DNA from: Virgibacillus sp. SK37
GTDB taxonomy: Bacteria > Bacillota > Bacilli > Bacillales > Amphibacillaceae
Reading direction: 5' to 3'
Assembly (NCBI RefSeq): GCF_000725285.1
Contig: NZ_CP007161.1
Span: forward strand, 2,828,213 to 2,892,212
Length of the DNA: 64,000 nucleotides
A model generated the notes under the pieces. That model worked only from the letters and a program-made list of their open reading frames with translations, ran no database searches and was not told where the DNA came from. This document shows positions 3,217 through 26,790 of the stretch, in pieces. Each line of letters begins with the position of its first letter. The first letter of the stretch is position 1. A program made the position numbers and the translations under genes.

Positions 3217-4155
3217 TTAAATATTCATTTCTTCTACTTTTATTTCCTTCATACACCAGTCAATTTTAGTTGTGTCAATGTAACCTGTTTTTTCCTGCAT
3301 GGCATTCAAAACTCCCATAGTTAAACCATACTTTATGAGTTCCTCACCCCTAAGGTTTCTTGCTAAACCGGAAGCAAAGCCTGCAATGACAGAATCTCCG
3401 GAACCAACCGGGTTAACCGCCTTTACTTTTGGTATTTGTGCATAGTAAAGTGTGTTTGTATGTTTCACCACAGCTCCATCTGCACCCAAAGTAACCACTA
3501 TCCATGGTATATCTCGGAGTACATCTCGCTGCAGTGCTTCAGCCACAGCCACCTCCGTGGTCAATTCTCTTCCGATCAAGTCAGCTAATTCAGACTGGTT
3601 CGGTTTTATCAGGAAAGGCTTGGTCTCGTTTTCAAGTACACGCTTCAACAACTCTCCCTTTGTATCAAGGAGCACAGGGGTCTTCGTTTTTCCAGTAATC
3701 GTTAGTACATCATTATAATAACTGAATTTTAACCCCTTCGGCAAACTTCCTGAGATAGTAATATAATCAGCCTGGTGTAAATACTCTTCCATCTTATCCA
3801 GGAATATAGTTGCTTCTTCTTGAGAGATCTCCGGGCCACTTTCCAATATTTCTGTTTGCTGTCCTTCATGAAGAACAGCTATACAGTTTCTAGTTTGCCC
3901 AGCAATAGAAACATAAAAGTCCTTGACATCCATCGTTCTTAATTCTTCATGAATGAATTCACCCAGATTGCCACCAAGGAATCCCGTAGCAGCAACATCC
4001 TCTCCAAGCTGCTTCAACACCCTTGTCACATTTAGTCCCTTTCCACCAGCTGTTTTTGATACATCAGTGACTCGATTTACCGTATCCAATTTGAATTCAT
4101 CTGGAAGATGATAGCTAATATCTACAGAAGGATTTAAAGTAATTGTTAGAATCAA
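3217..4155 (-). CDS. lacC: Tagatose-6-phosphate kinase / 1-phosphofructokinase family kinase
   Basis: PfkB-family sugar-phosphate kinase of 312 residues. The N-terminus ITLNPSVDISYHL and the GGKGLNVTRVL motif (about 38-48) are the LacC/FruK substrate-side signature. The second PfkB signature NPVGSGDSVIAGFASG (about 246) carries the catalytic aspartate. Next to a LacD-type aldolase it most likely phosphorylates tagatose-6-phosphate to the 1,6-bisphosphate. 1-Phosphofructokinase activity cannot be excluded by sequence alone. It starts at TTG behind AAGGAGGAATG. It is the last gene of the GalNAc operon, 32 bp after lacD, and is followed by a strong terminator. Confidence 0.88.
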   Translation of the reverse strand: MILTITLNPSVDISYHLPDEFKLDTVNRVTDVSKTAGGKGLNVTRVLKQLGEDVAATGFLGGNLGEFIHEELRTMDVKDFYVSIAGQTRNCIAVLHEGQQTEILESGPEISQEEATIFLDKMEEYLHQADYITISGSLPKGLKFSYYNDVLTITGKTKTPVLLDTKGELLKRVLENETKPFLIKPNQSELADLIGRELTTEVAVAEALQRDVLRDIPWIVVTLGADGAVVKHTNTLYYAQIPKVKAVNPVGSGDSVIAGFASGLARNLRGEELIKYGLTMGVLNAMQEKTGYIDTTKIDWCMKEIKVEEMNI

Positions 4156-4187
4156 GCAGAATCATTCCTCCTTATTCCCCGCTTAAA

Positions 4188-5147
4188 CTAGTAGCCACAG
4201 CTAGAGGCCGTAAAATCGAGCACATCATTCAATTCAGTAATATTGTTTTTACCATCTTTTTGCAACCACTTTTCAGCTGCGTTTGTTCCTTCTTCTTTAT
4301 AGCGATGTGCTGCACCACTCCATGTTGCTCTACCACATAACACGCCATGGAAAGATGCTGATGCTTCTTTCGCAAATTTCAATGTTTCCTGGAATAATTC
4401 TGCACTTACGCCAGCACTTAGGAAAATATAAGGAATGTCACTTACTTCACTCTGTTGTTTAAAGTAGTTAGCTGCTTCCTCTTGTGTATGGATAACCTCA
4501 CCTTCAGCATATCCTTCTACAAAATTCATATTTACTGGGACTTCCATTTTAAGTACATCTACACCGAAGCGAGCTTGGGAAAAATGTCTCATTGACTCAA
4601 TAACTTTTCTTGGCTTTACTTTCGCATATTCTACTCCTTTAGCGTCAGAAATATTTTCATCATATGTAATGATTTCAAGGAAAAAAGGCACTTCCTCTGC
4701 ATTACATTCCGACCCAATCCGTTCTACAAATACATCTTTTTTTTCATTAATATCACTTGGATCGTCGATATCATGATAAATTAGTACCTTAATGCCGTCT
4801 GCACCTTTTTCTACTAAACGCTTAACAGACCATTCAGGCAGAAGACTTGGAAATCTTCCAGGCTCGGTAGTGTCATAACCCGTTTTTTCGTAGGCAACAA
4901 GCAAGCCACAATTTGCATCCTTTTCGTTCACCGCCGGCCAGCCGTATTCCGGATCTAATAGAATGGCAGATGCATATTTAGTAAGATTTCCTGATACAAG
5001 TGACTTAAAGTTTTCGATTTGTTCCTTTGAAGTATCCTCGCCCATCATACGTTTCAATGCTCCTCTTTGATCAATAGCCAATGCACTGAAATATCCGTTC
5101 TTATTCGTTAGTTTTTTTAAACGAGCTATTTTAGCTTCACTTTTCAT
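4188..5147 (-). CDS. lacD: Tagatose 1,6-diphosphate aldolase
   Basis: 319-residue class I aldolase of the LacD family (usual length about 325). It splits tagatose-1,6-bisphosphate into dihydroxyacetone phosphate and glyceraldehyde-3-phosphate. The N-terminus [18 protein letters not shown], the [11 protein letters not shown] segment (about 200, expected Schiff-base lysine) and the C-terminal [13 protein letters not shown] are family features. It sits between the deacetylase and the tagatose-6-P kinase with 26 and 32 bp gaps and is the lower half of the tagatose pathway. The start is ATG behind a GGAG-type site. Confidence 0.92.
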
Positions 5148-5173
5148 TGTTTTATTTCTCCTTACTTTTCAAA

Positions 5174-6319
5174 TTATTTTTCGTATACAATCGATCCATT
5201 AACTGCTGTAACAATGACCTCCATACTAGGACTTAGAACAACAAAGTCCGCAAACTTCCCTGATTGGATACTTCCTAGTTCATTATCCTTGTTAAGGCTT
5301 TTTGCAGGGGAAAGACTAGCAAGATGCCAGATTTCACTTAAATTCTTTCCAGTCCATTGTGAAAGGTTTTGCACCCCGTCCAATAATCGGAGAGTACTTC
5401 CAGCAAGGGATCCTGTTTCTGTTCGAGCAACTCCATTTTTCATCACTACAGGAAACTCACCTAAATGGTATTTTCCATCAGGCATTAATCCAGCTCGCAT
5501 GCAATCCGTAATTAGTTGCAACTTATCCCCTTTTAATTGATAAGCCATGGAGGCTACTTCTGGATGTACATGGAAACCGTCACAGATAATTTCAGCGAAA
5601 GCGTTTTTTAGTGTTAATGCTGCTCCTGCAACTCCTGGCGCCCGGTGATGTAACCCAGACATCCCATTAAATAAATGTACAAAATTACGTGCCCCTGCAT
5701 GCACAGCATCTACACAACATGTATAGCTAGCATCTGTGTGAGCAATGCTAGCCAGGACCCCGGAATTCGCAACCTTCTGAATAAATTGCTCAGCCCCTTC
5801 TCTTTCCGGAGCAAGTGCTATCTTTACAATTGAACCTTCAGCTAACTCTTGCCAATGGACAAACTCCTCAAGGGAAGGGTCAGAAAAGTAACTTGGGTTT
5901 TGTGCCCCTTTATGCTTCTCAGTGAAATAAGGACCTTCAAGAAAAATCCCTTCTGAAACAGCTCCAGGTAACCCCTCTGCAACTGCCTGTCTAACGGCTT
6001 TAATGGCTTTCACCAAATCACTTCTAGATGAAGTTAACGTTGTAGGAAGAAAACGTGTCACCCCTATTTTTGCAATCTCTTCTGATATATTAAGAACAGC
6101 TTCCTGCGTCCCATCCATAATGTCAAACCCAGCTATTCCATGAATATGCGTATCAAACAATCCCGGGGCAACAGTACAGTCGCCCCAGTCTTTTATCTCC
6201 ACACCACTTGGAACCTCATCAACAAAACCGGCAAATTTATGATCTTTGATAGCTAAGTAACCATCTGATTTCTCTCCGTCTTCAAGTAAAAAACGATCTG
6301 CTTTTATAATGTAATCCAT
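5174..6319 (-). CDS. nagA: N-acetylglucosamine/N-acetylgalactosamine-6-phosphate deacetylase
   Basis: Amidohydrolase-fold deacetylase of about 381 residues that removes acetate from GlcNAc-6-P or GalNAc-6-P. Visible features are the metal-binding GLFDTHIHG (about 55), EGPYF (about 130), HLFNGMSGLHHR (about 217), DGFHVHPE (about 247) and LITDCMRAG (about 272), where the aspartate is catalytic. I place the start at the ATG at 6319, behind AGAAGGTTT, rather than the TTG 9 bp upstream. With AgaS and LacC/LacD next to it and no NagB, the physiological substrate is probably GalNAc-6-P, so agaA could be the better functional name. Confidence 0.92.
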   Translation of the reverse strand: MDYIIKADRFLLEDGEKSDGYLAIKDHKFAGFVDEVPSGVEIKDWGDCTVAPGLFDTHIHGIAGFDIMDGTQEAVLNISEEIAKIGVTRFLPTTLTSSRSDLVKAIKAVRQAVAEGLPGAVSEGIFLEGPYFTEKHKGAQNPSYFSDPSLEEFVHWQELAEGSIVKIALAPEREGAEQFIQKVANSGVLASIAHTDASYTCCVDAVHAGARNFVHLFNGMSGLHHRAPGVAGAALTLKNAFAEIICDGFHVHPEVASMAYQLKGDKLQLITDCMRAGLMPDGKYHLGEFPVVMKNGVARTETGSLAGSTLRLLDGVQNLSQWTGKNLSEIWHLASLSPAKSLNKDNELGSIQSGKFADFVVLSPSMEVIVTAVNGSIVYEK

Positions 6320-6357
6320 TGATATCAAACCTTCTTTTATATAAATAGATTAATAGT

Positions 6358-7533
6358 TTATCCTTCATAATCATGGATGGTTACACCTTGTACTACTCGA
6401 TTTATCGTACCATCCGGGCTTGGATTATCAGGAGTAATACCGAGCTTCATTGATTTTTTCATTGCTAATACTTGTGCAAACATAATGTATAAGAATCCAA
6501 GCTCCAAATCAGTCGCTAAAGCTTCCCCATTAAAGTTTACGCTTATTACCCAGTCAGCCAGTTTTTTCACTTCATCATCTATTTTTTCAGTCACCGCAAT
6601 TACTTTCATTCCATTATTTGCGCTAGCAAGCTCTTTCAATATATCCAGATCGTACTTGCGGGTATATGCATTACTAGATAAGAAAACAACAACGAGTGAT
6701 TGGTTATTCACAATAGACTTAGGACCATGTCGGAATCCTAAGGAAGATTCATATAATGCCACTACATTGCCAGCTGTCAACTCTAACATTTTCAAAGATG
6801 CTTCATGAGCAAGCTGTCCTAATAAGCCAGAACCTAAGTAAATAATCCGATTAAAATCGAAGTTTAAAATATCATCTACTTGATCAGCGACACTTTCTCT
6901 AAGCTGCTCAGCGTTTGAAATAACTTTTGTTGTTTCTTCTCCCGTAAATGGTTGCGGATTAAATAGTTGATATGCTGCCAACATCATTGTTGAAAAGCTA
7001 CTTGTCATTGCCAATGATTTATCATTAGATTTTTCAGGCATAAGCAATAGAATACTATTATTGTCATTGCGGATATTCTGAGCAAGCTGTCCTTCCTTGT
7101 TACAAGTAATCACGACCTGATAGAAATTTTTGATCAGTTTCTGCCCCAACTCAACGGTAGCAACACTTTCGGGACTGTTCCCTGAACGTGCAAAGGAGAC
7201 CATAATAGTAGGGGTTTCTGCCTGTAAATATGCGGTCGGATTGGACACAATATTTGTGGTAGGTACCGCTTCAAAATGAACGTGATCCTTATTCAATCTA
7301 TTCAGTTCTGGTGCTAGCGTATCTCCAACAAAAGCGGAAGTTCCAGCACCTGTTAAAATAACGCGTACGTGAGGATGCTTTTGATAAATTGATTCTAAAA
7401 ACTCGTTATATCTCTCTTTATTCTTAAAAAATTCAGTTACCCATTCCTTCCATACCTCTGGCTGGTGATGAATTTCTGTGCAGGTATGGTTTGCACCCAT
7501 CTTTTCTATTTCGTGAGTATCTAAGTTAAACAA
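6358..7533 (-). CDS. agaS: AgaS-family SIS-domain sugar-phosphate isomerase/deaminase
   Basis: 391-residue protein with two SIS (sugar isomerase) domains. The first carries VILTGAGTSAFVGD (about 59) and SFARSGNSPESVA (about 116). The second carries IIYLGSGLLGQLAHEASLKMLE (about 229) and SSLGFRHGPKSIV (about 262). AgaS converts galactosamine-6-phosphate to tagatose-6-phosphate with release of ammonia, linking the NagA product to the LacC substrate. The start is probably TTG after a GAAGGGAAG site. It directly follows the operator palindrome at 7559-7576. Fructosamine deglycase relatives share the fold, but the tagatose genes alongside favour AgaS. Confidence 0.9.
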   Translation of the reverse strand: MFNLDTHEIEKMGANHTCTEIHHQPEVWKEWVTEFFKNKERYNEFLESIYQKHPHVRVILTGAGTSAFVGDTLAPELNRLNKDHVHFEAVPTTNIVSNPTAYLQAETPTIMVSFARSGNSPESVATVELGQKLIKNFYQVVITCNKEGQLAQNIRNDNNSILLLMPEKSNDKSLAMTSSFSTMMLAAYQLFNPQPFTGEETTKVISNAEQLRESVADQVDDILNFDFNRIIYLGSGLLGQLAHEASLKMLELTAGNVVALYESSLGFRHGPKSIVNNQSLVVVFLSSNAYTRKYDLDILKELASANNGMKVIAVTEKIDDEVKKLADWVISVNFNGEALATDLELGFLYIMFAQVLAMKKSMKLGITPDNPSPDGTINRVVQGVTIHDYEG

Positions 7534-7558
7534 CTTACCTACTTCCCTTCTTTTAAAA

Positions 7559-7576
7559 GGTTATGTTGTCATAACC
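7559..7576. promoter_or_regulatory. GntR-family operator (site 2)
   Basis: Perfect palindrome GGTTATG-TTGT-CATAACC in the gap between the gntR-type gene and agaS. It shares the GGTTAT/ATAACC half-sites with the palindrome ahead of gntR at 8368. That suggests a second binding site for the same repressor, controlling agaS-nagA-lacD-lacC. Confidence 0.7.
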
Positions 7577-7618
7577 AGTATTAGTATTTTAAAACTCTAC
7601 TTATTTTAAAATAGAGTT

Positions 7619-8350
7619 TTACTTCAATTCCACTGTGTAATCAAATTTATCACCACGTGCAATGCTGATAGTATATTCAATCAGATCATCCTGGTAATAA
7701 GCATAACGTCGAATAAGCATGGCCGGAAGTTCTAACTCAGCTTGCAAATAAGCAGCCTCTTGCTTTCGTACAGTAGTAGCCGAGAAACGCTCACGCGCTC
7801 TAGTGACAACAATTTGATATTCTTCCTGAAATAAATCATACATTGGTTTTTTTTCAAGCATCTCTTTTGTAAGATTAGGGAATAACCTGACTGGAAGGTA
7901 TGAAGTTTCATACATTAATGGTTCTTGATCTGCTAAACGCAGCCTTATAACCTGAAACACTTCTTCTAACGGTTGTAAATTCATCTTTCCAGCAAGCCTT
8001 TCATCTACAGGCATTTGCTGAAAGGAAATCACTTTTGTCGTCGGCACCTTCCCAAGTTCCTTCATCTGTTCCGTAAAGCTGTATAACTGTACCAAATTTT
8101 GATTGTACATCTTTGACGCAATAAAAGTACCTTTGCCATGCAACTTGTAGATATAGCCTTCTCTTTCCAATTCTTGTAGAGCCTGCCGGACAGTTATTCT
8201 GCTCAAATTATAAATTTCACATAATTCCCGTTCTGATGGCAGTTTTTCATGCTCTTGATACGTTTGGTTATTAATCTTTTTCACTAACTCATCCATTAAT
8301 TGCAAATAGAGCGGAATCCTGCTTTGTTTATCCAATGTTACTTCCACCAC
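7619..8350 (-). CDS. GntR family (HutC/UTRA) transcriptional repressor of the GalNAc operon
   Basis: 243 residues. Residues about 8-75 form a GntR winged helix (IPLYLQLMDELV, LPSERELCEIYNLSRITVRQALQELEREG split over two helices). Residues about 95-240 form a UTRA ligand-binding domain, which in NagR/AgaR-type regulators senses amino-sugar phosphates. It lies inside the operon between PP2C and agaS. Perfect palindromes flank the gene on both sides (8368-8385 and 7559-7576), so autoregulation plus control of the downstream genes is likely. The start is GTG at 8350 or TTG 15 bp further in. Confidence 0.88.
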   Translation of the reverse strand: MVEVTLDKQSRIPLYLQLMDELVKKINNQTYQEHEKLPSERELCEIYNLSRITVRQALQELEREGYIYKLHGKGTFIASKMYNQNLVQLYSFTEQMKELGKVPTTKVISFQQMPVDERLAGKMNLQPLEEVFQVIRLRLADQEPLMYETSYLPVRLFPNLTKEMLEKKPMYDLFQEEYQIVVTRARERFSATTVRKQEAAYLQAELELPAMLIRRYAYYQDDLIEYTISIARGDKFDYTVELK

Positions 8351-8367
8351 TTTCCCTTACTTTCCAA

Positions 8368-8385
8368 AAGTGGTTATAACCACTT
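8368..8385. promoter_or_regulatory. GntR-family operator (site 1)
   Basis: Perfect 18-bp palindrome AAGTGGTTATAACCACTT, 17 bp upstream of the GntR start. The core GGTTATAACC matches the half-sites of the palindrome at 7559. This is the layout expected of an autoregulated GntR/HutC repressor. Confidence 0.75.
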
Positions 8386-8436
8386 AAACTCATTATATAT
8401 TTTTAAACCTTGATTGTAAAGTTCATTGATAAAAGT

Positions 8437-9294
8437 CTACCATTTAAGCAAAATTCCTGTCTTATCATCTCTTTGCTTCAGCCTTGGATATATCCTGCAT
8501 TCTGCATCGTCCGATTCTCGTTTTTCCACTTCTTTGACCAATCCATCTAGTCCATGATCAAAAGCTAATTTAGCTGTTTGTCTCCAGCCTCTCTCTTCCT
8601 CTATTTTCTGTGGTAAAAGCAGTCCATCACTGACAAGCAGTATCCCCTTTACCTGGTGAAGAGGGACTCTTCCATGCGAAAGATAAGCAAGAGCATTCTC
8701 GCTTCCATCTAAGATGCCGTATCCTTCTGGTGTGTTTAGTAGTCCCCTATTGCGGAGGAGAATAGGATTGACTTTTTCCCTTACATCTTTCAGACTTATT
8801 TCTGGATTTTTCTCTCTTAAACGCACCATTTCCTCAACTGCAAGGCTGTCAAAATACTGAATAGCATCATGTGTAACACTGTATACTTCTTCGTTTTTAA
8901 ATTGGAGAAATAACATACAATCCCCTGTGTGAACGTATTCTAGCATGCTTTTTTGAGCATGCAGTTTTATCGTAGCAAGCCCTGTGGTACTCCGCTGCTT
9001 TTTAGGGATTTCGCGAAGTGAGCGGGATGCTATTTTTCCTATATTTGCTTCATAGTAATCAACCATTGTTCTGCCAAGTGTTTCATTAGCATTTTTGATC
9101 GTAGTATACAGACTGCTGTAATGCTTCATCTCCGTTAGTTGTTTGTGAAAAGTTTGGGAAGCTAGATATCCTGGAGTACCTCCAAGTCCTGTTGCTCCAT
9201 CAATCGCAGCAAAGACCTGTGCTTCTTCATTTACAACACAAGCATCTTCGTTCACTTGTTTGTCACCTTTGAGATATAATTTTTGTATTTTCAT
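8437..9294 (-). CDS. PP2C-family serine/threonine phosphatase
   Basis: 285 residues with the whole set of PP2C metal/phosphate motifs in order: NEDACV (about 15), FAAIDGATG (about 29), a TTGLATI segment (about 103), HTGDCMLF (about 122), LLVSDGLLLP (about 220) and a final DDKTGILL (about 276). It is therefore predicted to be an active Mn/Mg-dependent protein phosphatase without membrane segments or extra domains. It sits between a ROK kinase (23 bp upstream) and the GntR regulator inside the GalNAc operon, which is an unusual place for a PP2C. Its target is unknown. ATG is preceded by GTAAGGAGAACT. Confidence 0.85.
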   Translation of the reverse strand: MKIQKLYLKGDKQVNEDACVVNEEAQVFAAIDGATGLGGTPGYLASQTFHKQLTEMKHYSSLYTTIKNANETLGRTMVDYYEANIGKIASRSLREIPKKQRSTTGLATIKLHAQKSMLEYVHTGDCMLFLQFKNEEVYSVTHDAIQYFDSLAVEEMVRLREKNPEISLKDVREKVNPILLRNRGLLNTPEGYGILDGSENALAYLSHGRVPLHQVKGILLVSDGLLLPQKIEEERGWRQTAKLAFDHGLDGLVKEVEKRESDDAECRIYPRLKQRDDKTGILLKW

Positions 9295-9317
9295 ATAGTT
9301 CTCCTTACTATGTTTAT

Positions 9318-10217
9318 TTAATTAAACACACGTAAACCCGCTCCAATAATGCCCTGATCATTCTTAAGTTGACAGTTTTCAATCGCACGTACTATATGTT
9401 TTTGCTCATCTAGTAAATAGGGACGTAATTTATCCTTAATTAACTCTACCAACATTGGATTATAGATTGCTACACTTCCACCAAAGACAATTTTTTGGGG
9501 ATCTATAATACTATTTAGCATATATATTCCTTGGGCGATCGAAAAAGCTGCTTGCTCTACAACTTTCTGTGCTTTTGATTCTCCTTTGTAAAATAAATCA
9601 AATACATCAGCAGTTGTTAAATTATCATCGTTATATAGCTCTTGAGCCTTCCTTGCAATAACTGGGCCTGATGCTACTTTTTCCAATCGTTCTAATTTAC
9701 CTGCTACTTCCGATTCAACTACAGGTATTAGACCAAGCTCCCCAGCAAAGCCTGCCCCACGTATAAATTCTCCATTTTGTATAATCGAACAGGAAATACC
9801 TGTACTGATTGTAACATATACAAAAATACTGTCTTGAGGCATTTCCGCTTTCTTCCATTCGGCATATGCTGCCATGTAGACATCATTATCTATAGAAATA
9901 CGATCTACAGAAAATCGTTGCTGTAACCTTTCAGCTACTGGAAAATTGCTCCATGGCAAATTGTTTTGAAATATAGCCATGCCCTTGGCCGTATCAACTT
10001 TCCCGGGAACGCCTACCCCAATGCCATGGATGTCTGCTAAGGGTATACTAGAATGACCAAGTAAATTCTCTACACATGTACAAACTTGAGAAAACATATT
10101 TTCTCTATCTGAAGCATCACTTTCTATCATCTCCTTTTGGATCAAATCACCATTTTCATTTATTATTCCTGCAGCAACCTTCGTACCACCAATATCTATC
10201 CCCAATGCATTTCTCAT
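9318..10217 (-). CDS. ROK family sugar kinase
   Basis: 299-residue ROK protein without a DNA-binding domain, so a kinase rather than a repressor. The N-terminal ATP site GIDIGGTKVAAGI (about 5-17) and the sugar site SIDNDVYMAAYAEW (about 107) are present. The usual ROK zinc-binding cluster (CxCGxxGCxE) after GELG is replaced by a cysteine-free stretch ahead of EKVASGPVIARKA, so this protein belongs to a zinc-less branch. In this operon the likely substrate is GalNAc or another amino sugar, giving the 6-phosphate for NagA. Glucokinase-type activity is the alternative. The start is ATG behind AGAGGGAG. Confidence 0.85.
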   Translation of the reverse strand: MRNALGIDIGGTKVAAGIINENGDLIQKEMIESDASDRENMFSQVCTCVENLLGHSSIPLADIHGIGVGVPGKVDTAKGMAIFQNNLPWSNFPVAERLQQRFSVDRISIDNDVYMAAYAEWKKAEMPQDSIFVYVTISTGISCSIIQNGEFIRGAGFAGELGLIPVVESEVAGKLERLEKVASGPVIARKAQELYNDDNLTTADVFDLFYKGESKAQKVVEQAAFSIAQGIYMLNSIIDPQKIVFGGSVAIYNPMLVELIKDKLRPYLLDEQKHIVRAIENCQLKNDQGIIGAGLRVFN

Positions 10218-10294: not shown

Positions 10295-12727
10295 TTATTT
10301 TTCTAATGTAGGTTTAACTGGTCTTCCTGCAAACAATTGCTCTCCATCTGTATAACCCTCTTCTCGTCCTGCTAACTCGTGGATTAATTGACTTCTTCTA
10401 GCATTTATTTGTTTCTCATAGTTCGAATCGCCTGTTTTATTTGTTAGCTCATTAGGATCTTCAACTAAATCAAAAAACTGCTCATCTCCTGTTTGGGAAA
10501 ACCAAATATATTTCTCTCTGCCATCCGTTATATAATGATAACTTTTTATTCCATGTTCATGCTCCCCATGGATGTAATCCCGCCAATTGTTATGTTCATT
10601 TTTCCATAAGGATAGCAAACTATTTCCTTCAACACTTGAGGGAACTTCAATATCTGCTATATCTAACAGAGTCGGCATGATATCTCTTAACTCGGCAACT
10701 TGATCAATTTGTATATTTTTATTCAGACCTAAACTATTGCCTGGATCTGCTAGAATAAAAGGTACTTTTGCACTCCCCTCATATGGAAGCGTCTTTCTAT
10801 ATAAATTATGATCTCCCAATAGCTCTCCATGATCAGATACGAATAAAATAATGGTGTTATCGTATACTCCATATTCTTGCATCGCTATTAAAAAACGGCC
10901 AATTTGATGATCAATATGGGTAATTAAGGCATAATAGGCAGCTTGAGCACGTTTCAATCTCCATTTTGGCACAATTCCTTCAGAGGTGACAGGATTTAAG
11001 CCTGCTTTTGTATCATCTTCCTCGTTAGCCCAATTACCTACAGCGGGTGCAGGCAAATCAAGATCTTCAACCTCAGCCCACTTGTACTCATATTCCGGAC
11101 CTACAGCATTTGTTATAACTCCATTCAACTTAGGTGATACTAACTTAGCTGAGGCAGTTTGATAGACTGGTGCAATAGCGGCTGTATTGAGAAGAATTTT
11201 TTCCGCTTCAAGTAAAGCTTCATATCTCTCTACAGGCTTTGTTGCAAGTTCGCTTTGAGTTCTTGCAAGTATTTCATCGTATTTTTCAACAGAATAACCC
11301 ATCTTATTCGTGTTCTCATCTGTGATCCACATACCTAGAAAAGTAAATGGATCTTGATAATCAGGCGCCCACCCTGTGAACTGCAAATCATAATCCATGC
11401 TCTTATCCAGAGTAGTCAACTGCTCAAGGGGCACTCTCTTAATTGTTATAGACAGTCCAGGTAGATTCTTCTCTAGCTGGTTTGCCATATACTCACTTAT
11501 AAACTTCGAATCACCACTATCGCCTGATAGGTATTCCAATTCAACGGAATCCCTCCCTATCTCTTCCAAGCCTTTTTTCCATAACTCGCTAGCTTCTTCA
11601 GCATCGTACGTAACTAAATCCCCGTTTATATCCCGAAAATCCTTTCCATTCTCTGGATGTGCTGAAAACTTTTTAGGCACAAGCCCATTCGCTGCGATTG
11701 AACCGTTATTTAAAATGTTATCAACAAGCGCTTCCTTATCAAAAGCTCTGCTAATTGCTTTTCGAATATTACTGTTACCCAAAGCTTTTGTTCGTTCCTG
11801 GTTCATTTTCAAGTAAAAAACACTTGCTTCAGGAGTAGTTACAAAATCATCCCTTGATTGAAACTGATCTACTAAATCCGAAGACAACTCAGCCCGGTCA
11901 ATTTCTCCCTTTTCATATAAATCAACGATTAATTGATTATCTTTTGCCACATTATAATTAAATTCTTCTATTGAAACTTCTTCTGCATCCCAATAGGAAG
12001 CATTTTTCTCCAGCTTCCATGAATCTGAAGTACTTTCCCATTCCGTCAGTTTATACGGGCCATTAGAAAGAAGGTATTCGCTACTCGTCCCGTAATTGTC
12101 CCCTGATTTTTCAACAAACTCTTCATTTAAAGGCCAGTTAAATATCCCAAATGAAATTAATGATTCAAAGTACGGAATTGGCTTTTCGAGAGTAGCTACT
12201 AATGTATGATCATCCTTTGCTTCGATACCTAAATCGCTCACTTCTTTCTTACCTTCACTTATCGCTTTTGCATTCTTCACTACGCCATTCATTAAATATG
12301 GTCCATACTCTGAACCTGTATCCGGATTAATAGCCCTTTGCCATGCATAGACAAAATCATGTGCAGTGACAGGATCCCCATTTTCCCATTCGGCATTATC
12401 ACGAAGGTGGAACGTCCATTTCAGACCATCGTCACTAACTTCACTTTGTGTTGCAATACCTGGTACCTTTTCTCCCTTTTCATCTAAACGGAATAACCCT
12501 TCTGTTGTCATTGATAAAAATTGGTTGGAAACTTGATCATTTGCCAAAGTTAGATCCATTGTTGTAATTTGTTCACTTTTAGTTAAGTGTACTATCTGTT
12601 CATCAACATTACTAACCTTTCCATCATCTGTTGAAGATTCGGTAGCGCTATTGTTACATGCTGTAACCAAAACAAATAAGCCACATAAAACGATTAAAAA
12701 TAAAAAACTTTTTAATAAACGTAGCAT
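10295..12727 (-). CDS. Chimera: oligopeptide-binding lipoprotein fused to C-terminal half of a sulfatase
   Basis: 810 residues in one uninterrupted frame. Residues 1-24 are a lipoprotein signal ending in the lipobox VTAC. Residues to about 555 are a full OppA/DppE-type peptide-binding protein, alignable end to end with the paralogue at 18141-19826 (shared GDPVTAHDFVYAWQRA and final YEYKWA). From about 556 the sequence switches to the C-terminal part of an alkaline-phosphatase-fold sulfatase: AAYYALITHIDHQIGRFL, then VSDHGELLGDH with metal ligands, then EGSAKVPFI, FFDLVEDPNE and a terminal AGRPVKP. The N-terminal sulfatase half with the formylglycine CxPSR motif and the first metal aspartates is absent, so sulfatase activity is not expected. 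ATG follows GGAGGGATATC. It is 77 bp upstream of the ROK gene in the GalNAc operon. It was probably born by a deletion between an oppA and a sulfatase gene. Confidence 0.85.
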   Translation of the reverse strand: MLRLLKSFLFLIVLCGLFVLVTACNNSATESSTDDGKVSNVDEQIVHLTKSEQITTMDLTLANDQVSNQFLSMTTEGLFRLDEKGEKVPGIATQSEVSDDGLKWTFHLRDNAEWENGDPVTAHDFVYAWQRAINPDTGSEYGPYLMNGVVKNAKAISEGKKEVSDLGIEAKDDHTLVATLEKPIPYFESLISFGIFNWPLNEEFVEKSGDNYGTSSEYLLSNGPYKLTEWESTSDSWKLEKNASYWDAEEVSIEEFNYNVAKDNQLIVDLYEKGEIDRAELSSDLVDQFQSRDDFVTTPEASVFYLKMNQERTKALGNSNIRKAISRAFDKEALVDNILNNGSIAANGLVPKKFSAHPENGKDFRDINGDLVTYDAEEASELWKKGLEEIGRDSVELEYLSGDSGDSKFISEYMANQLEKNLPGLSITIKRVPLEQLTTLDKSMDYDLQFTGWAPDYQDPFTFLGMWITDENTNKMGYSVEKYDEILARTQSELATKPVERYEALLEAEKILLNTAAIAPVYQTASAKLVSPKLNGVITNAVGPEYEYKWAEVEDLDLPAPAVGNWANEEDDTKAGLNPVTSEGIVPKWRLKRAQAAYYALITHIDHQIGRFLIAMQEYGVYDNTIILFVSDHGELLGDHNLYRKTLPYEGSAKVPFILADPGNSLGLNKNIQIDQVAELRDIMPTLLDIADIEVPSSVEGNSLLSLWKNEHNNWRDYIHGEHEHGIKSYHYITDGREKYIWFSQTGDEQFFDLVEDPNELTNKTGDSNYEKQINARRSQLIHELAGREEGYTDGEQLFAGRPVKPTLEK

Positions 12728-12949: not shown

Positions 12950-14227
12950 ATGAAACCTACAACAGCCATTTTAATTGGCGCAGGAGATCGTGGAGCTAGA
13001 GCCTATGCGCCTTACGCTTTAAAAAATCCACATGAGCTTAACATTATTGGGGTTGCCGAACCAAACGAATTAAGAAGAGATAAGATGAAACAAGAGCATA
13101 ACTTGTCTACAGAGGACTGCTTTCATTCCTGGGAGGACTTGCTTGCAACAGAGAAAACAGCAGATATAGCCATCATTTGCACAATGGATAGAGAACACTT
13201 TGGGCCTACAATGAAAGCATTGGAGCTTGGATATCATGTCCTATTAGAAAAGCCAATGTCACCAGACCCCAAAGAATGCATCGCAATGGAGCAACAGGCA
13301 GAAAAGTATAATAGACAACTAACAATTTGCCATGTACTTCGTTATACAGACTTTTGGTCAACAATAAAAAAAGTTATTGAAGAAGGTAAAATTGGTGATG
13401 TGGCATCCATTCAATTAAATGAAAATGTTGAAGTTATGCACATGTCACACAGCTTTGTTCGCGGAAACTGGAAAAAGAAAGAAGACTCAAGTCCGATGAT
13501 TTTACAGAAATCCTGTCACGACATGGATATCATTCGTTATGTTATGAACAAAAAGTGCGAACGAGTTAGCTCTTATGGATCGCTCATGCACTTCCGCAAA
13601 GAAAACATGCCCACTGGAGCACCAAAACGCTGTCTTGATGGATGTCCAGCAGCTCAATCCTGCCCATTTCATGCAGGGAATTATTATCTTGGCGAAGGTA
13701 GAGGATGGGCAAGAAAGTTCACTGAAGACACATCAAACGAAGGCATTATTAAAGCTTTATACGAAACTGATTATGGAAAATGTGTCTATCAGCTTGATAA
13801 CGATGTTGTTGATCACCAGGTTGTAAATATGGAATTTGAAGATGGAGCTACAGCAACGTTCAGTATGTGTGGATTCACACGTGAGCAGACAAGAACTGTT
13901 CAGATCATGGGTACCAAAGGGGAGTTGCGTGGAAATATGACAGAAAATCAAATATCCTATTATGACTTCCTTACAAAGCATGAAACAATCATTAAATTTG
14001 ATCCGCCAACTGGCGGACATGGTGGCGGAGATTTAGGCATCATGCGTGACTTCTTAATCGACATTCAGCAAAGTGATAGAAGTAAAAGTGTTTCCTCTGC
14101 AAGTAATTCGTTAAGCAGCCATTTAATGGCATTCGCCGCTGAAGAATCACGTTTAAGCCATGGCACGTCCATCGAACTGGATACTTTCTATAATAATTTA
14201 TCAAAACAATACAGTGTGACGGAGTAA
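12950..14227 (+). CDS. Gfo/Idh/MocA family oxidoreductase
   Basis: 425-residue NAD(P)-dependent oxidoreductase. The N-terminal Rossmann motif reads AILIGAGDRGARAYAP (about 5-20). The EKPMSPDPKECIAM segment (about 99) holds the family EKP catalytic lysine. A C-terminal alpha/beta substrate domain follows. A cysteine-rich insert RCLDGCPAAQSCPF at about 224-238 is shared by a subgroup of carbohydrate-active members. The ATG follows AAAGGGGAT. It is divergent from the SBP-sulfatase gene (222-bp AT-rich spacer) and 50 bp upstream of a LacI regulator, so it probably acts on a sugar or uronate whose presence is sensed by that regulator. Substrate unknown. Confidence 0.88.
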   Translation: MKPTTAILIGAGDRGARAYAPYALKNPHELNIIGVAEPNELRRDKMKQEHNLSTEDCFHSWEDLLATEKTADIAIICTMDREHFGPTMKALELGYHVLLEKPMSPDPKECIAMEQQAEKYNRQLTICHVLRYTDFWSTIKKVIEEGKIGDVASIQLNENVEVMHMSHSFVRGNWKKKEDSSPMILQKSCHDMDIIRYVMNKKCERVSSYGSLMHFRKENMPTGAPKRCLDGCPAAQSCPFHAGNYYLGEGRGWARKFTEDTSNEGIIKALYETDYGKCVYQLDNDVVDHQVVNMEFEDGATATFSMCGFTREQTRTVQIMGTKGELRGNMTENQISYYDFLTKHETIIKFDPPTGGHGGGDLGIMRDFLIDIQQSDRSKSVSSASNSLSSHLMAFAAEESRLSHGTSIELDTFYNNLSKQYSVTE

Positions 14228-14256
14228 GTATGATAAAATAAATAGAAGAAACTTGA

Positions 14257-15257
<1,001 letters not shown>

Positions 15258-15275: not shown

Positions 15276-16404
15276 TTATAATGTAATAATTAACTTACAA
15301 AGAAGGGTAGTACGCTCTGGAATTTCACTTGCCAAAATATGTTCATTTTTTGCATGAATTCCTTCTCCGACAGCACCAAGGCCGTCAAGGGTGGGAACTC
15401 CTAAGTTCGCAGTAAAATTACCATCACTTCCCCCTCCAACCGATGCCTCTTCCAACTCAAAATTAAGATCTTTAGCAATATGCTTTGCTACTTTAAAAAG
15501 CTTCCCTGTCCTTTTGCTCCTAACCATTGGCGGGCGGTTCATTTTTCCCTTTACTTTCAAAGTTACTCCCTCTGTTCTGGGCTGAAGATGGCGGATGAGT
15601 TGGTCCATTCTCTTTTGCTCCTTCAATGTCTTTACCCGTACATTTACTCCAAGGGTAGCAGAATCCGGCACAACGTTCAACTTACCCCCACCCCTAACAG
15701 TTCCTACATTTACTGTGGTTCCCGAAGCATAGTTTGTTAATTCTTCTAAAAGAATGATTAGATGTGCAGCTTCTTTTTGCACTCCTGCCATCTCTGTGAT
15801 GATTTCCAGCATGCGCTGCTTTGCCTTTTATATCGATTATATAGCGAGAAGAGCCTTTGCGTGCTGTTTTTAATGCACCAGTTTCTGCTACTGGTGGTTC
15901 CGTTACTAAAACAACCTTACTGTTTAAGGCTTCTTTCTCAATTATCGGCTTTGATGTAGGACTTCCTAGTTCTTCATCACTTGTACATAGAAATACTATT
16001 TTTTTATTTAGGGAGAGACCTAAATCCTTACAAGCTTTCAAAGCCCAAATTGCTTGAACCAATCCAGCCTTCATATCCAGGATTCCAGGTCCGTATACTT
16101 TGTCCCCTTTTACTTTATACCGAAGATCTCCCTTGTCCCAAACGGTATCAAAATGGGATAATAGGAGGAGCGTTTCCTCTCCCTCACCAAATTCAAACCG
16201 CAAATGATCTCCGTATTTTTTCTCTTTGATTACTGTTGCCTTATAGCCGAAATATCGCTGAAATAATAGTTGAATATTTGCTTTGCATATATCTGTTAAT
16301 TCTTTATTTATGGAGGGTGAATCACTTTCTACGAGTAGTTTTATATCCTCCAGAATTCTTTGTTGATTAACTTCCATGAATTTTTTTATTTGGTCCATCT
16401 CCAT
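15276..16404 (-). pseudogene. M20 family metallopeptidase, frameshifted (carboxypeptidase G2-like)
   Basis: Two overlapping minus-strand frames give one M20 peptidase. The upstream frame (16404 to about 15780) has LLLLSHFDTVWDKGD and YGPGILDMKAGLVQAI (metal ligands) and TSDEELGS (catalytic glutamate). The downstream frame supplies the dimerisation domain and GGGSDGNFTANLGVPTLDGLG. In the first frame the protein reads DGRSAK and in the second KEAAHLI. Removing one A from the minus-strand A5 run (plus-strand T5 at 15774-15778) joins them as GRSAKEAAHLI, which fits the family. A single +1 insertion in a homopolymer is therefore the only lesion. It may be a real null allele, phase variation or a sequencing error. 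Confidence 0.88.
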
Positions 16405-18140: not shown

Positions 18141-19826
18141 TTATTCTGCTCCTACGTCTGCCCATTTGTATTCATATGTTGCTCCAAATGGATTTACATG
18201 GACACCTTTTACTTTTGGTGAAACTAATTGAGCACGAGATGCTTGATATAGTGGAGCTATAGCTGCATCTTCAAAGAGAATCTTTTCTGCTTCAAGGAAA
18301 TTCTCATAACGTGCCGGATTGTCTGTAGCTAGCTTTGTTGCTGTATCGCCAACTAGCTGATCATATTTAGAGTTAGAATAACCCATCTTATTATTTCCGC
18401 TTTCTGTTGTCCATAGATTCATGAAAGTAAATGGATCTAAGAAATCGGGACCCCAGCGAGAAACCTGTAACTCATAATCCATATTGTCGTTAAGATCCAG
18501 ACGTTGTTCCTTAGGTACTTGTTTTAGATTAATTGTTAAACCTTCAAGATTTGTAGACAACTGGTTTGCAAGGTATTGTACCATTGTTTTGGTTGTCTCA
18601 TCATCATCTGTTAATAATTCCAATTCAACTGAATCGGTACCAAGCTCCTCTAATCCTTTTTTCCATAGCTCTTTAGCTTCTTCTACATTATATGTGCTAA
18701 GATCGCCACTCACTTCCCTGAAATCTTCACCAGATTCAGGCATTGGAGTAAAGTCTACTGGAATTAGTCCGTTTGCTACAATCGAGCCATTGTTTAAGAT
18801 TTGATCTACTAATGCTTGCTTATCGAAGGCTCTGTTCATTGCATTTCTAATATTCTTATTTGCTAACGCTTCATTGGTAGTTTGATTATACTTCATAAAG
18901 TATACAAAGGTATCTGGTGAAATCACATAATCTTCATTCGTTGCGTATTGGTCAACTAGATCTGAAGTCAAATCAACACGATCTACTACTCCAGACTCAT
19001 ATAAATCTACTGCAGTTTGTGGGTCTTTTACGACTTCGAATTTTAACTGATTCATCTTTACTGAATCCGCATCCCAGTAATCTTCGTTTTTTTCTAACGT
19101 CCAAGAGCTGCTAGTGCTTTCCCAATCTGCCATCTTATATGGCCCATTAGCAAGCAATGCATCTGAGCTGGTTGCATATTTATCTCCCTGCTCTTCAACA
19201 AATTTTTGATTTAGTGGAAAGAAAGTACCAAATGTAGTCAATGATTCAAAATATGGAGTTGGATTTTCAAGTTCAACTACTAATGTATAATCATCTTCTG
19301 CTTTTGCACCTAATTCTTCAACTGCCTTCTCACCTGAACTGATGGCAGTTGCATTTTTAATAACACCATTCATCATATAAGGCCCATATTCTGATCCTGT
19401 GTCAGGATTAACTGCACGTTGCCATGCATATACAAAATCATGTGCTGTAACAGGGTCTCCATTTTGCCATTTTGCATCTTCCCTTAAATGAAACGTCCAT
19501 GTTAGACCATCATCACTAACTTCATGTTTTTTCGCGATTCCTTCTACCGGTTTCGCGTTTTCATCCAAGCGGTACAAGCCTTCTGTAGTTGCTGCTAAGT
19601 AAATAAAAGATGATTCATCTGTTGCAAGCGAGGAATCCATAGAAGGAATGGTTTCCGGGTTTATAAAGCTAAGAACTTTTTCACCTTCTGCGGCCGCTTC
19701 CTCGTTTACTTCACTGCTTGTCTCTTTTTCTCCTGATGTTTCTTCTGCTTTATCACCAGAACATGCTGCTAATACGCCTAGTAATAGACCTACTGCTAAT
19801 AAAATCATCCATTGCTTCAACTTCAT
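18141..19826 (-). CDS. Oligopeptide ABC transporter substrate-binding lipoprotein (OppA/DppE family)
   Basis: 561-residue SBP_bac_5 family protein. The signal peptide ends in the lipobox VLAAC, so it is a lipid-anchored receptor on the outer membrane face. Conserved features include GLTWTFHLREDAKWQNGDPV and TAHDFVYAWQRAVNPDTG, and the C-terminal YEYKWADVG. It is a clear paralogue of residues 1-555 of the chimera at 10295-12727. No permease or ATPase genes are adjacent, so it must use a transporter encoded elsewhere. ATG follows GGGGGGAATTTTTAC. Peptides are the family substrate; other ligands are possible. Confidence 0.92.
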   Translation of the reverse strand: MKLKQWMILLAVGLLLGVLAACSGDKAEETSGEKETSSEVNEEAAAEGEKVLSFINPETIPSMDSSLATDESSFIYLAATTEGLYRLDENAKPVEGIAKKHEVSDDGLTWTFHLREDAKWQNGDPVTAHDFVYAWQRAVNPDTGSEYGPYMMNGVIKNATAISSGEKAVEELGAKAEDDYTLVVELENPTPYFESLTTFGTFFPLNQKFVEEQGDKYATSSDALLANGPYKMADWESTSSSWTLEKNEDYWDADSVKMNQLKFEVVKDPQTAVDLYESGVVDRVDLTSDLVDQYATNEDYVISPDTFVYFMKYNQTTNEALANKNIRNAMNRAFDKQALVDQILNNGSIVANGLIPVDFTPMPESGEDFREVSGDLSTYNVEEAKELWKKGLEELGTDSVELELLTDDDETTKTMVQYLANQLSTNLEGLTINLKQVPKEQRLDLNDNMDYELQVSRWGPDFLDPFTFMNLWTTESGNNKMGYSNSKYDQLVGDTATKLATDNPARYENFLEAEKILFEDAAIAPLYQASRAQLVSPKVKGVHVNPFGATYEYKWADVGAE

Positions 19827-24572: not shown

Positions 24573-25556
24573 TTTATTTTCTCAGAGATGGTTATTTACG
24601 TTTTGACAGAAGCCCAATACATTAGTACTGAGCTCCCTGATTCCACTTTCGTTTCATTACTTCTTTCCTGGCATAAATCAACAGAATAATTGCAACTAAG
24701 CCTTCTGATATTGGCAATGCTAACCAAATTCCCATCGTGCCTAACCAAGCTGGCAGAATGAGCAATGAGGCAATTAATAGAATAAATCCTCTGAACAATG
24801 TAATCCAAATGGAAGGTCTTACATAACCGATGGATTGATAATAGGTCATATAAATGAAATTTGTCCCCATAAAAAGATAACCTATAAAGAAAAGCTTTAT
24901 TCCACTTATCGCGAGCTGGCGTATTTCCTCTGTTGCTACGCCGAATATAGAAACAAGGAAATCCGAGCCTACATAACCGATAAGAATAAACACAATACCA
25001 AGCCCAAATCCAGTTATTTCTGCAATTTTTACTGTTTCTTTAATGGCATTGTATTTTTTTGCCCCATAGTAATAACTGATCATTGGTTGAATGGAAGACC
25101 CTATTCCAATAAAGGCCAAAAACATAAAGGTATGCAAATAATTGATCACAGAAAATGCGGCGAGTCCAGTCGTACCAGCGTAATAGGCCATTCCAAGATT
25201 ATATCCCATTACAAACACGCCCGTACCTGCCTCAGAAAGAAAGTTTGGAAATCCGAGCTTGGAGATCGGACGAATGAGCGATTTTCTGAAACGTATTCTG
25301 GTAAATCGCAAACCTGCATCTTTATTGAAAAAATGCAGCAAATAAACGAATAAACCAGCAACTGTTGCTAGCACTGTTGCTAATGCTGCCCCTTTTACTT
25401 CCCAATCCAAAATAAATATCATCCAATAATTCAGGACAATATTTAGTACAGCGGACACAATAAGTCCAGCCATCGCCAGCTTTGGAGCTCCATCATTACG
25501 GAGAAAAATACTAACAACGTTTTCCCAGGCGATGATAACAGACGTTGAACTACCCG

Positions 25557-25590
25557 CCACTTATTTAACCTCGCGGTCAAATTGAAGTGG
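25557..25590 (-). other. Right-end hairpin of the TnpB element (probable omega/reRNA scaffold end)
   Basis: CCACTT pairs with AAGTGG, and an inner stem ATTTGACC pairs with GGTTAAAT around a GCGA loop. In characterised TnpB elements the RNA scaffold ends at the right end and the guide is the flanking sequence directly after it. Here the guide would be read from MATE sequence at about 25544 downward. Confidence 0.6.
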
Positions 25591-25629: not shown

Positions 25630-26790
25630 TTAGGCGATCTCCACAGTTCCTGCGGTTAAGAGGCGGAGTGCCGCGTTCAAGTCCCGGTCATGATGCGTTT
25701 GGCAAGAAGGACAGTCCCATTTACGCAAGGCAAGGTTTTTGATGTCCTTATGCTGATGACCACAGTTGGAGCATAATTGGCTGCTTGGGAATGTCTTTGA
25801 AACAACGACAACCTGCTTTCCGTACCATTCGGCCTTGTATTCCAGCATCGTACGAAAAGTCGACCAGCTTGCTTCACTGATTACCTTTGAAAGCTGTCTA
25901 TTTTGCAGCATATCTTTCACCTGCAAATCCTCAATTCCGATGATGTCGTGGTTTTTGACAATTTCGGTGGAGAGTTTATGCAGGTAATCGTTGCGTTTAT
26001 TCATGATTTGCTCGTGCAGGCGGGCGACTTTTCGGCGCTGTTTCTGGTAATTGTGAGCCTCTGCAAGTTTGCATTTGCGGCGGAGAGCACCTTTACGTCT
26101 TCTGGACAGGATCCGTTGTGCCTTGGCCAGCTTCTTCTCCAGTTTGCGTACATGCCGTGGATTTTCATGACGGGTTCCGTCTGAAAGAACGGCAAATTCC
26201 TTCAGCCCAACATCGATGCCGACCGCAGATCCTGTTTTCGGCAGTTCCGACACATTCGTTTCCACCAGAATGGAGACAAAGTATTTACCGGAAGGGTTGC
26301 GGCGAACGGTCGCATTTAAGATACGGCCTTCAACTTCACGGCTTTTTGCAAAACGGACAAGTCCAAGTTTCGGGAGCTTCACATGGTTGCCAACAATCGC
26401 AATATTACCGTTTGTATGCCGGGTGACATAGGACTGGACTGGATTGTTTTTCGATTTAAAGCGTGGCCGGTCATTCTGTTTACGGAAGAAGCGATCATAA
26501 GCATCCGCTAGGTTCTTCAATGCGGATTGCAGGGAAATGGAATCCACTTCCTTCAGCCAGATGGATTCTTTCTTTAGGACGGTAAGTGCTTTGGAACAAA
26601 GGCTATAGGTAAGGCCTGTACCCGTTTTTTCATAGGTTGTGTTCCATTCCTCAAGGAAATGGTTGAACACAAATCGACTACAGCCAAGTGTTTTGGCAAT
26701 CAATACCTCCTGTTGATGATTCGGAAAGATACGGAATTTATACGCTTTATGTACAGCGCCCACCTCCCTAATAAGAATATATGTTCCCAT
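25630..26790 (-). CDS. tnpB: TnpB, RNA-guided endonuclease of IS200/IS605 element
   Basis: 386 residues in the longest frame. The N-terminal OrfB helix-turn-helix reads [20 protein letters not shown]. The RuvC-like nuclease has a complete acidic set: [10 protein letters not shown] (D193), IIGIEDLQ (E287) and [10 protein letters not shown] (about 368-370). A CSNCGH...CPSC zinc ribbon lies at about 340-364. The nuclease is therefore predicted intact. The start is uncertain. An excellent AGGGAGGTG site is followed after 6 nt by GTA (26754-26752) where relatives begin with ATG/GTG and then HKAYKFR. The only upstream ATG (26790) lacks a ribosome site. Confidence 0.93.

Follow-up and report, generated by a model that had tools for sequence, protein, structure and literature searches.

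Does an open frame in which a peptide-binding lipoprotein runs on into half of a sulfatase represent a new kind of protein, or is it the trace of a gene loss? The question is raised by a stretch of 64,000 nucleotides from Virgibacillus sp. SK37, hereafter the window. A sequence-only reading of the window had left both answers standing: a deletion scar that is still translated, or a new lipid-anchored protein in which a dead sulfatase domain binds sulfated glycans for a GalNAc operon. We compared the locus with that of Virgibacillus halodenitrificans JCM 12304 (G001, contig NZ_BAZS01000020.1, locus L039), the only other genome of the genus compared, and with the sulfatase loci of more distant relatives. 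We are highly confident that the frame is a recent in-frame deletion scar and not a new kind of protein.

The fused frame and its parts

The fusion occupies an 810-codon frame on the minus strand (window 12727 to 10295) with no internal stops. Its first 553 codons (11069 to 12727, minus strand) encode a complete family-5 solute-binding (OppA-type) lipoprotein, with a full SBP_bac_5 domain (Pfam PF00496; residues 88 to 474 match profile positions 3 to 367 of 368, E 1e-78) and 57% identity over residues 5 to 553 to the paralogue at 18141. A VTAC motif in the translation at residues 21 to 24 (12656 to 12667), read as a lipobox, follows a hydrophobic stretch. A genome search recovered seven clear OppA paralogues, six at 44 to 59% identity and one at 32%, along with three weaker binding-protein matches at 24 to 30%. 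The open frames of the paralogues and binding proteins listed span 545 to 623 residues, and among them only the copy in the window carries a sulfatase tail.

That tail comprises codons 555 to 810 and the stop (10295 to 11065, minus strand) and is the C-terminal half of a sulfatase, devoid of both a signal peptide and a formylglycine site. It matches only positions 200 to 301 of the 301-position Pfam Sulfatase profile, together with positions 1 to 148 of 154 of SGSH_C, so that a whole sulfatase domain (PF00884) is absent. The translation agrees with the earlier reading that the formylglycine motif is missing and that SDHGELLGDH is present; the metal-segment residues of SDHGE that are kept, D632 and H633 (10829 to 10834, minus strand), correspond to D304 and H305 of the intact enzyme. 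The in-frame joining of an OppA lipoprotein to half a sulfatase, as first described from the letters, is thus borne out by 810 codons free of stops and by Pfam domains of both parents.

A deletion of 7,875 bp relative to V. halodenitrificans

In a search of 100 related genomes, the closest match to the tail (86%) lies in V. halodenitrificans, where the two parent genes are intact, separate, and in the same order and on the same strand. The oppA orthologue (L039:8584-10254; 556 aa, 88% identical) stands upstream of the sulfatase (L039:17438-18883; 481 aa), which retains a CVPAR formylglycine motif and is followed by a ROK kinase as in the window. The DNA that separates them encodes an AraC-family regulator (on the other strand), the binding protein and two permeases of a carbohydrate ABC transporter, and a 726-aa 1,3-beta-galactosyl-N-acetylhexosamine phosphorylase. 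In a blastn comparison the colinearity of the two breaks off at L039:10240 (window 11068) and resumes at L039:18116 (window 11065), so that the window lacks 7,875 bp present in V. halodenitrificans.

The junction falls in a mixed codon, 554 (E; 11066 to 11068, minus strand), and is resolved to 2 bp, bases 11067 to 11066 matching neither parent gene unambiguously. The OppA of V. halodenitrificans ends WAEI-GSSD-stop and the fusion reads WAEV-E-DLDLP; the last four natural OppA residues are gone, and the sulfatase resumes at D227 of 481, so that the tail equals residues 227 to 481 of the V. halodenitrificans enzyme. The junction had been placed exactly at the end of the binding protein, with the sulfatase starting at about residue 556. 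It does lie near that end, but the sulfatase begins at D555, codon 554 is mixed, and the last four codons of the binding protein have been replaced.

No extended repeat was found at the breakpoints; in G001 the sequences within 40 bases of the two have no word longer than six bases in common, and this one is out of register. We rejected a repeat-mediated deletion on the grounds that the breakpoints lack extended identity and that the dispersed repeat within the lost segment lies ~1 kb from the nearer one. Compared as they are at sister-species divergence, the breakpoints would fit illegitimate recombination as the route of deletion.

The dispersed repeat itself is intergenic, up to about 300 bp long, and present in several copies in both genomes (for example L110 and L112, G000:C1:3359045-3359329 and 11752-11976), including inside the segment of G001 that corresponds to the loss. 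Parts of it match the Rfam Bacillaceae-1 RNA, one part above the gathering score.

Distribution of the architecture

When the same architecture was looked for in other genomes, it was found once only, in the window. At a threshold of E 1e-60, the tail has close matches in 17 of 159 family genomes (this one included), at 19 places in all, and no other fusion occurs among them: all 18 of the other places are frames of 486 to 543 aa, compared with 817 in the window. In a named genome set of 36 loci, which overlaps with the 159 family genomes, sulfatase frames of 476 to 538 aa are present at 35 loci. A cysteine-type formylglycine motif occurs at 34 of the 36 (32 C-x-P-x-R and two C-x-A-x-R); at L099 only the serine form was matched, and that match may be spurious.

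Within the DNA of each of the 36 loci, an OppA match at E 1e-8 near the sulfatase was obtained only in V. halodenitrificans, with the proviso that upstream DNA at L080, L091, and L095 is well under 9 kb and a more distant oppA could be missed there. Outside this set, G041 also has an OppA-type gene (55% identity to the OppA part), but it is unfused and is located some 1.5 kb past the sulfatase, on the opposite strand, and not upstream. A second truncated copy seemed to be offered by L100 (Cohnella ginsengisoli), and we rejected it, as that locus has ~100 residues of a sulfatase C terminus and no OppA match better than E 0.6. We likewise reject the fusion as a recurrent architecture, given its absence from the 36 named-genome loci and from the other close places in the 159 family genomes. 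No literature was found on binding-protein/sulfatase fusions in the Bacillaceae, and among the matches listed for the V. halodenitrificans genome and sulfatase, for galacto-N-biose phosphorylase with sulfatase, and for deletion fusions, this locus was not met.

At the level of DNA, then, the proposal of a deletion scar holds: the sister species has each parent as an undamaged gene of its own, the window lacks 7,875 bp of that arrangement, and no other genome searched shows the fusion. Separate adjacent genes in relatives and no other fusion had been named as the mark of a simple deletion; the genes are indeed separate and no other fusion was seen, but the parents stand about 7 kb apart and are not adjacent.

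The lost segment and the polarity of the change

The lost DNA was sought throughout this genome, which is rated 100% complete. With 40 of 103 first-look candidates scored, the 7,875-bp query matched nothing here but copies of the dispersed repeat described above and a single 64-bp stretch (77%); the AraC regulator and the permeases were sought only within this query. By protein search, the phosphorylase has no match in this genome and is found in three of three relatives, and the transporter binding protein has a best match of 27% here versus 100% and 75% in the two relatives searched. The V. halodenitrificans phosphorylase scores 1070 bits against TIGR02336, for which the cut-off is 560.

The three Lentibacillus loci L067, L068, and L070 encode the AraC regulator, the binding protein, two permeases, and the phosphorylase in the same order, followed by the ROK kinase and then the sulfatase, the last two being reversed relative to V. 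halodenitrificans; a similar module stands upstream of the sulfatase in G041 (L043). Because the module is present in other genera, loss in this genome, and not gain in V. halodenitrificans, is the derived state. It is also improbable that the full-length frames at 35 of 36 loci descend from half a sulfatase, which again makes the state of the window the derived one.

In the relatives, the combination of importer, phosphorylase, and sulfatase suggests that (sulfated) galacto-N-biose or lacto-N-biose is taken up, desulfated, and cleaved by phosphorolysis. This putative substrate is suggested by TIGR02336 and by the described LnbABC-LnbP route (PMC5583593).

Decay or constraint of the tail

A long-dead tail should carry many more substitutions than this one does. 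Seven genes were compared with their V. halodenitrificans counterparts, and the tail has the highest dN/dS, at 0.145 (the others: oppA part, 0.103; ROK, 0.079; LCP-like, 0.058; LacI, 0.054; second oppA, 0.050; Gfo/Idh, 0.034). If the tail had been neutral over the whole branch, well over 100 amino-acid-changing differences would be expected (rough arithmetic from a dS of 0.48 and 588 sites), and 39 are observed, both lineages together. So large a shortfall implies either that the deletion is recent or that the tail is still constrained.

Derived changes do not single out either lineage. With L067, L068, and L070 as outgroups, four fall in this lineage and five in the sister, 27 being undecided (not significant); with L067 alone, 12 fall here and eight in the sister (p 0.5); and with all ten outgroups, two fall here and one in the sister (not significant). 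Of 98 columns invariant in the ten outgroups, none has changed in either lineage. The data fit both a recent deletion and continuing constraint, and we prefer the former as the simpler reading of these substitution counts. An undecayed tail is compatible with selection on the fusion as well, and the tail's dN/dS and the lean toward this lineage with L067 alone also weigh against our reading.

A proposed course of events

We propose that ~7.9 kb was deleted recently, with no extended repeat at its ends, and that the deletion would have taken the AraC regulator, the ABC transporter (binding protein and two permeases), the phosphorylase, and the first 226 codons of the sulfatase, and that by chance the end of oppA met the remainder of the sulfatase gene in the same reading frame. 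That the junction is in frame so near the oppA stop would be a coincidence, unless OppA function was selected. The product, if made, would be a lipid-anchored OppA with a catalytically dead tail of 256 residues outside the membrane, a tail that is probably inert and that proteases may clip. With no more than its last few residues altered, the OppA part would be expected to go on binding peptides.

The AgaS-, NagA-, LacD-, and PfkB-type genes are kept in this genome and the entry steps are lost. The cell has the downstream GalNAc-type catabolic genes but would no longer import galacto-N-biose/lacto-N-biose and split it by phosphorolysis along this route. The next gene, for the ROK kinase, would have been placed behind the oppA promoter.

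Gene neighborhood and possible promoter capture

The ROK-family sugar kinase gene (9318 to 10217, minus strand; assigned by Pfam ROK and synteny) lies 77 bp downstream of the fusion, just as it follows the intact sulfatase in V. halodenitrificans. Beyond it on the same strand (3217 to 9294) are genes for a PP2C-like protein, a GntR-type regulator, an AgaS-family isomerase, a NagA-like deacetylase, a LacD-like aldolase, and a PfkB/LacC-like kinase, together the amino-sugar (GalNAc-type) catabolic genes. PP2C, AgaS, LacD, and PfkB/LacC were named by Pfam and NCBIfam, the NagA-like gene by Pfam Amidohydro_1, and GntR by eye from its N terminus. On the other side (12950 to 15243, plus strand) a Gfo/Idh/MocA oxidoreductase and a LacI-family regulator are divergently oriented, and this flank is syntenic with V. 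halodenitrificans.

It is conceivable, though unlikely, that the deletion was itself selected for taking away the former operon promoter together with the AraC regulator and bringing the ROK gene, and perhaps the genes beyond it, under the oppA promoter, the change in expression being the benefit. The fused gene is on the same strand as ROK, neither the AraC regulator nor the former upstream region is left, and no terminator-like match was found between the fusion and ROK, so the kinase gene possibly now lies behind the oppA promoter. Promoter capture by in-frame deletion fusions has also been documented in experimental evolution (PMC4395868). Against this reading, promoter-like matches in the region are in no excess over shuffled sequence (32 versus 33.5), and the agaS genes are preceded by a GntR-type regulator gene of their own and, at 8420 to 8392, by a promoter-like site, so that only ROK and PP2C would clearly rely on read-through.

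Several other features of the neighborhood were recorded. ROK and PP2C adjoin in the window (9294 to 9318) and are separated by ~23 kb in V. halodenitrificans (L116 and L117, G001 C20:43844-66938), where the intervening block contains two further sulfatase genes, a possibly frameshifted polysaccharide lyase family 8 gene, and, by eye, another sugar transporter. A degenerate ROK remnant precedes PP2C there, and the 23-kb block may be an insertion in that species. Some 2.5 kb away from the fusion, a frameshift breaks an M20-type peptidase-like gene (by eye; 15276 to 16404, minus strand) into two frames that overlap; the same gene is one 374-codon frame in V. halodenitrificans, to which the pieces are 93% and 91% identical, and the split reflects either a second damaged gene or a sequencing error. 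Farther out on the minus strand, also by eye, a frame at 25630 to 26790 resembles an IS200/IS605-type OrfB/TnpB with zinc-finger-like CxxC pairs, and a 312-codon frame at 24622 to 25560 resembles the C-terminal part of a MATE-type transporter and is possibly truncated at its start.

Possible selection for the fusion and the possibility of a false join

A broader form of selection, in which the fusion is kept because an unused galacto-N-biose pathway has been silenced and an amino-sugar kinase rewired to the oppA promoter, with half a sulfatase tolerated or used as a metal- or glycan-touching extension, strikes us as very unlikely.

The fusion is known from one assembled genome, and a mis-join or an event specific to the culture could also have given rise to it. 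We regard a false join, with the 7.9 kb still present in the organism, as barely plausible. The assembly does consist of four contigs, but a mis-assembly driven by repeats is made less likely by the breakpoints, which offer an assembler no repeat to collapse, and the missing DNA, the phosphorylase, and the binding protein were not found elsewhere in a genome rated complete.

Catalytic status and fold of the tail

We take D11, Q12, C51, R55, K100, H102, H212, D304, H305, and K317 of the intact enzyme to be the usual metal and catalytic positions of sulfatases. Seven of the ten (D11, Q12, C51, R55, K100, H102, and H212), all of them invariant in 29 aligned enzymes (from 29 of the 36 loci), are lost, including the formylglycine cysteine of C-x-P-x-R (C51); D304, H305, and K317 are kept as D632, H633, and K645 of the fusion. 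Judged by these residues, a working formylglycine sulfatase is excluded for the tail, and, because most pocket residues are in the lost half, glycan binding by it is unlikely.

The parent enzyme begins MKPNVLLIMVDQ and has no visible signal peptide, and the fusion would therefore place half of a cytosolic protein outside the cell. The mean AlphaFold2 confidence is 71 for the tail alone and about 86 when it is predicted as part of the intact enzyme (mean of blocks, residues 231 to 480), weak evidence that the tail is not a free-standing domain as modeled; the metal loop is poorly predicted in both, so that the models are uninformative about it. The alignments behind both models cover 29 of the 36 loci (L080, L091, L094, L095, L099, L100, and L101 were left out).

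A functional new lipoprotein, whose tail would act outside the cell as, for instance, a binder of sulfated glycans (the idea put forward from the letters) or of metal that serves the peptide-binding domain, would draw on the open frame, the lipobox, the pristine tail, and its three kept residues, but the loss of most of the sulfate pocket, the apparently cytosolic origin of the tail, its lower predicted confidence when modeled alone, and the single occurrence of the architecture leave this reading a negligible chance.

Comparison with known systems

An odd-looking gene is explained here as a gene loss that can be traced to the base, and it serves as a warning against naming a new lipoprotein-sulfatase family. 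Half of a cytosolic enzyme would be set outside the cell, and whether such chimeras are tolerated or selected is a testable question.

Deletion fusions with promoter capture have been documented, which makes this a known kind of event. Three loci are described in Pseudomonas fluorescens wrinkly spreaders (PMC4395868) at which deletions produced in-frame fusions (PFLU0184-PFLU0183, PFLU4305-4306, and PFLU4313-4308), four genes being removed in one, with possible promoter capture and with transcripts up 23- and 219-fold in two fusions and a nonsignificant 3.9-fold in the third. As in those cases, the deletion of intervening genes in the window joins an upstream gene to a downstream one. The P. 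fluorescens fusions, as presented there, were selected and kept an active catalytic domain, whereas the downstream half in the window is dead and its joining is put down to chance.

Each half of the fusion can be set beside its own family. Residues 1 to 553 constitute a full member of the OppA-type lipoproteins (PF00496), 88% identical to the OppA of the sister species, but the gene lacks a stop codon of its own and continues through a mixed codon into 256 foreign residues. The tail resembles NCBIfam NF010322 'arylsulfatase' (PRK13759), being the C-terminal half of an enzyme whose V. halodenitrificans form (86% identical over that half) scores 702 bits against a cut-off of 481, with 9koq_A as the nearest solved chain. 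Unlike that family, the fusion is without residues 1 to 226 and the formylglycine cysteine, and at 326 bits it falls below the same cut-off.

The locus also provides a natural case in which the importer, first enzyme, and regulator of a pathway were deleted while the downstream catabolic genes stayed. Like the LnbABC-LnbP system for the import and phosphorolysis of galacto-N-biose (PMC5583593), the segment still present in V. halodenitrificans combines genes for a sugar ABC transporter with one for a phosphorylase; unlike that system, the module is gone from the genome of the window, and only the downstream amino-sugar genes are left.
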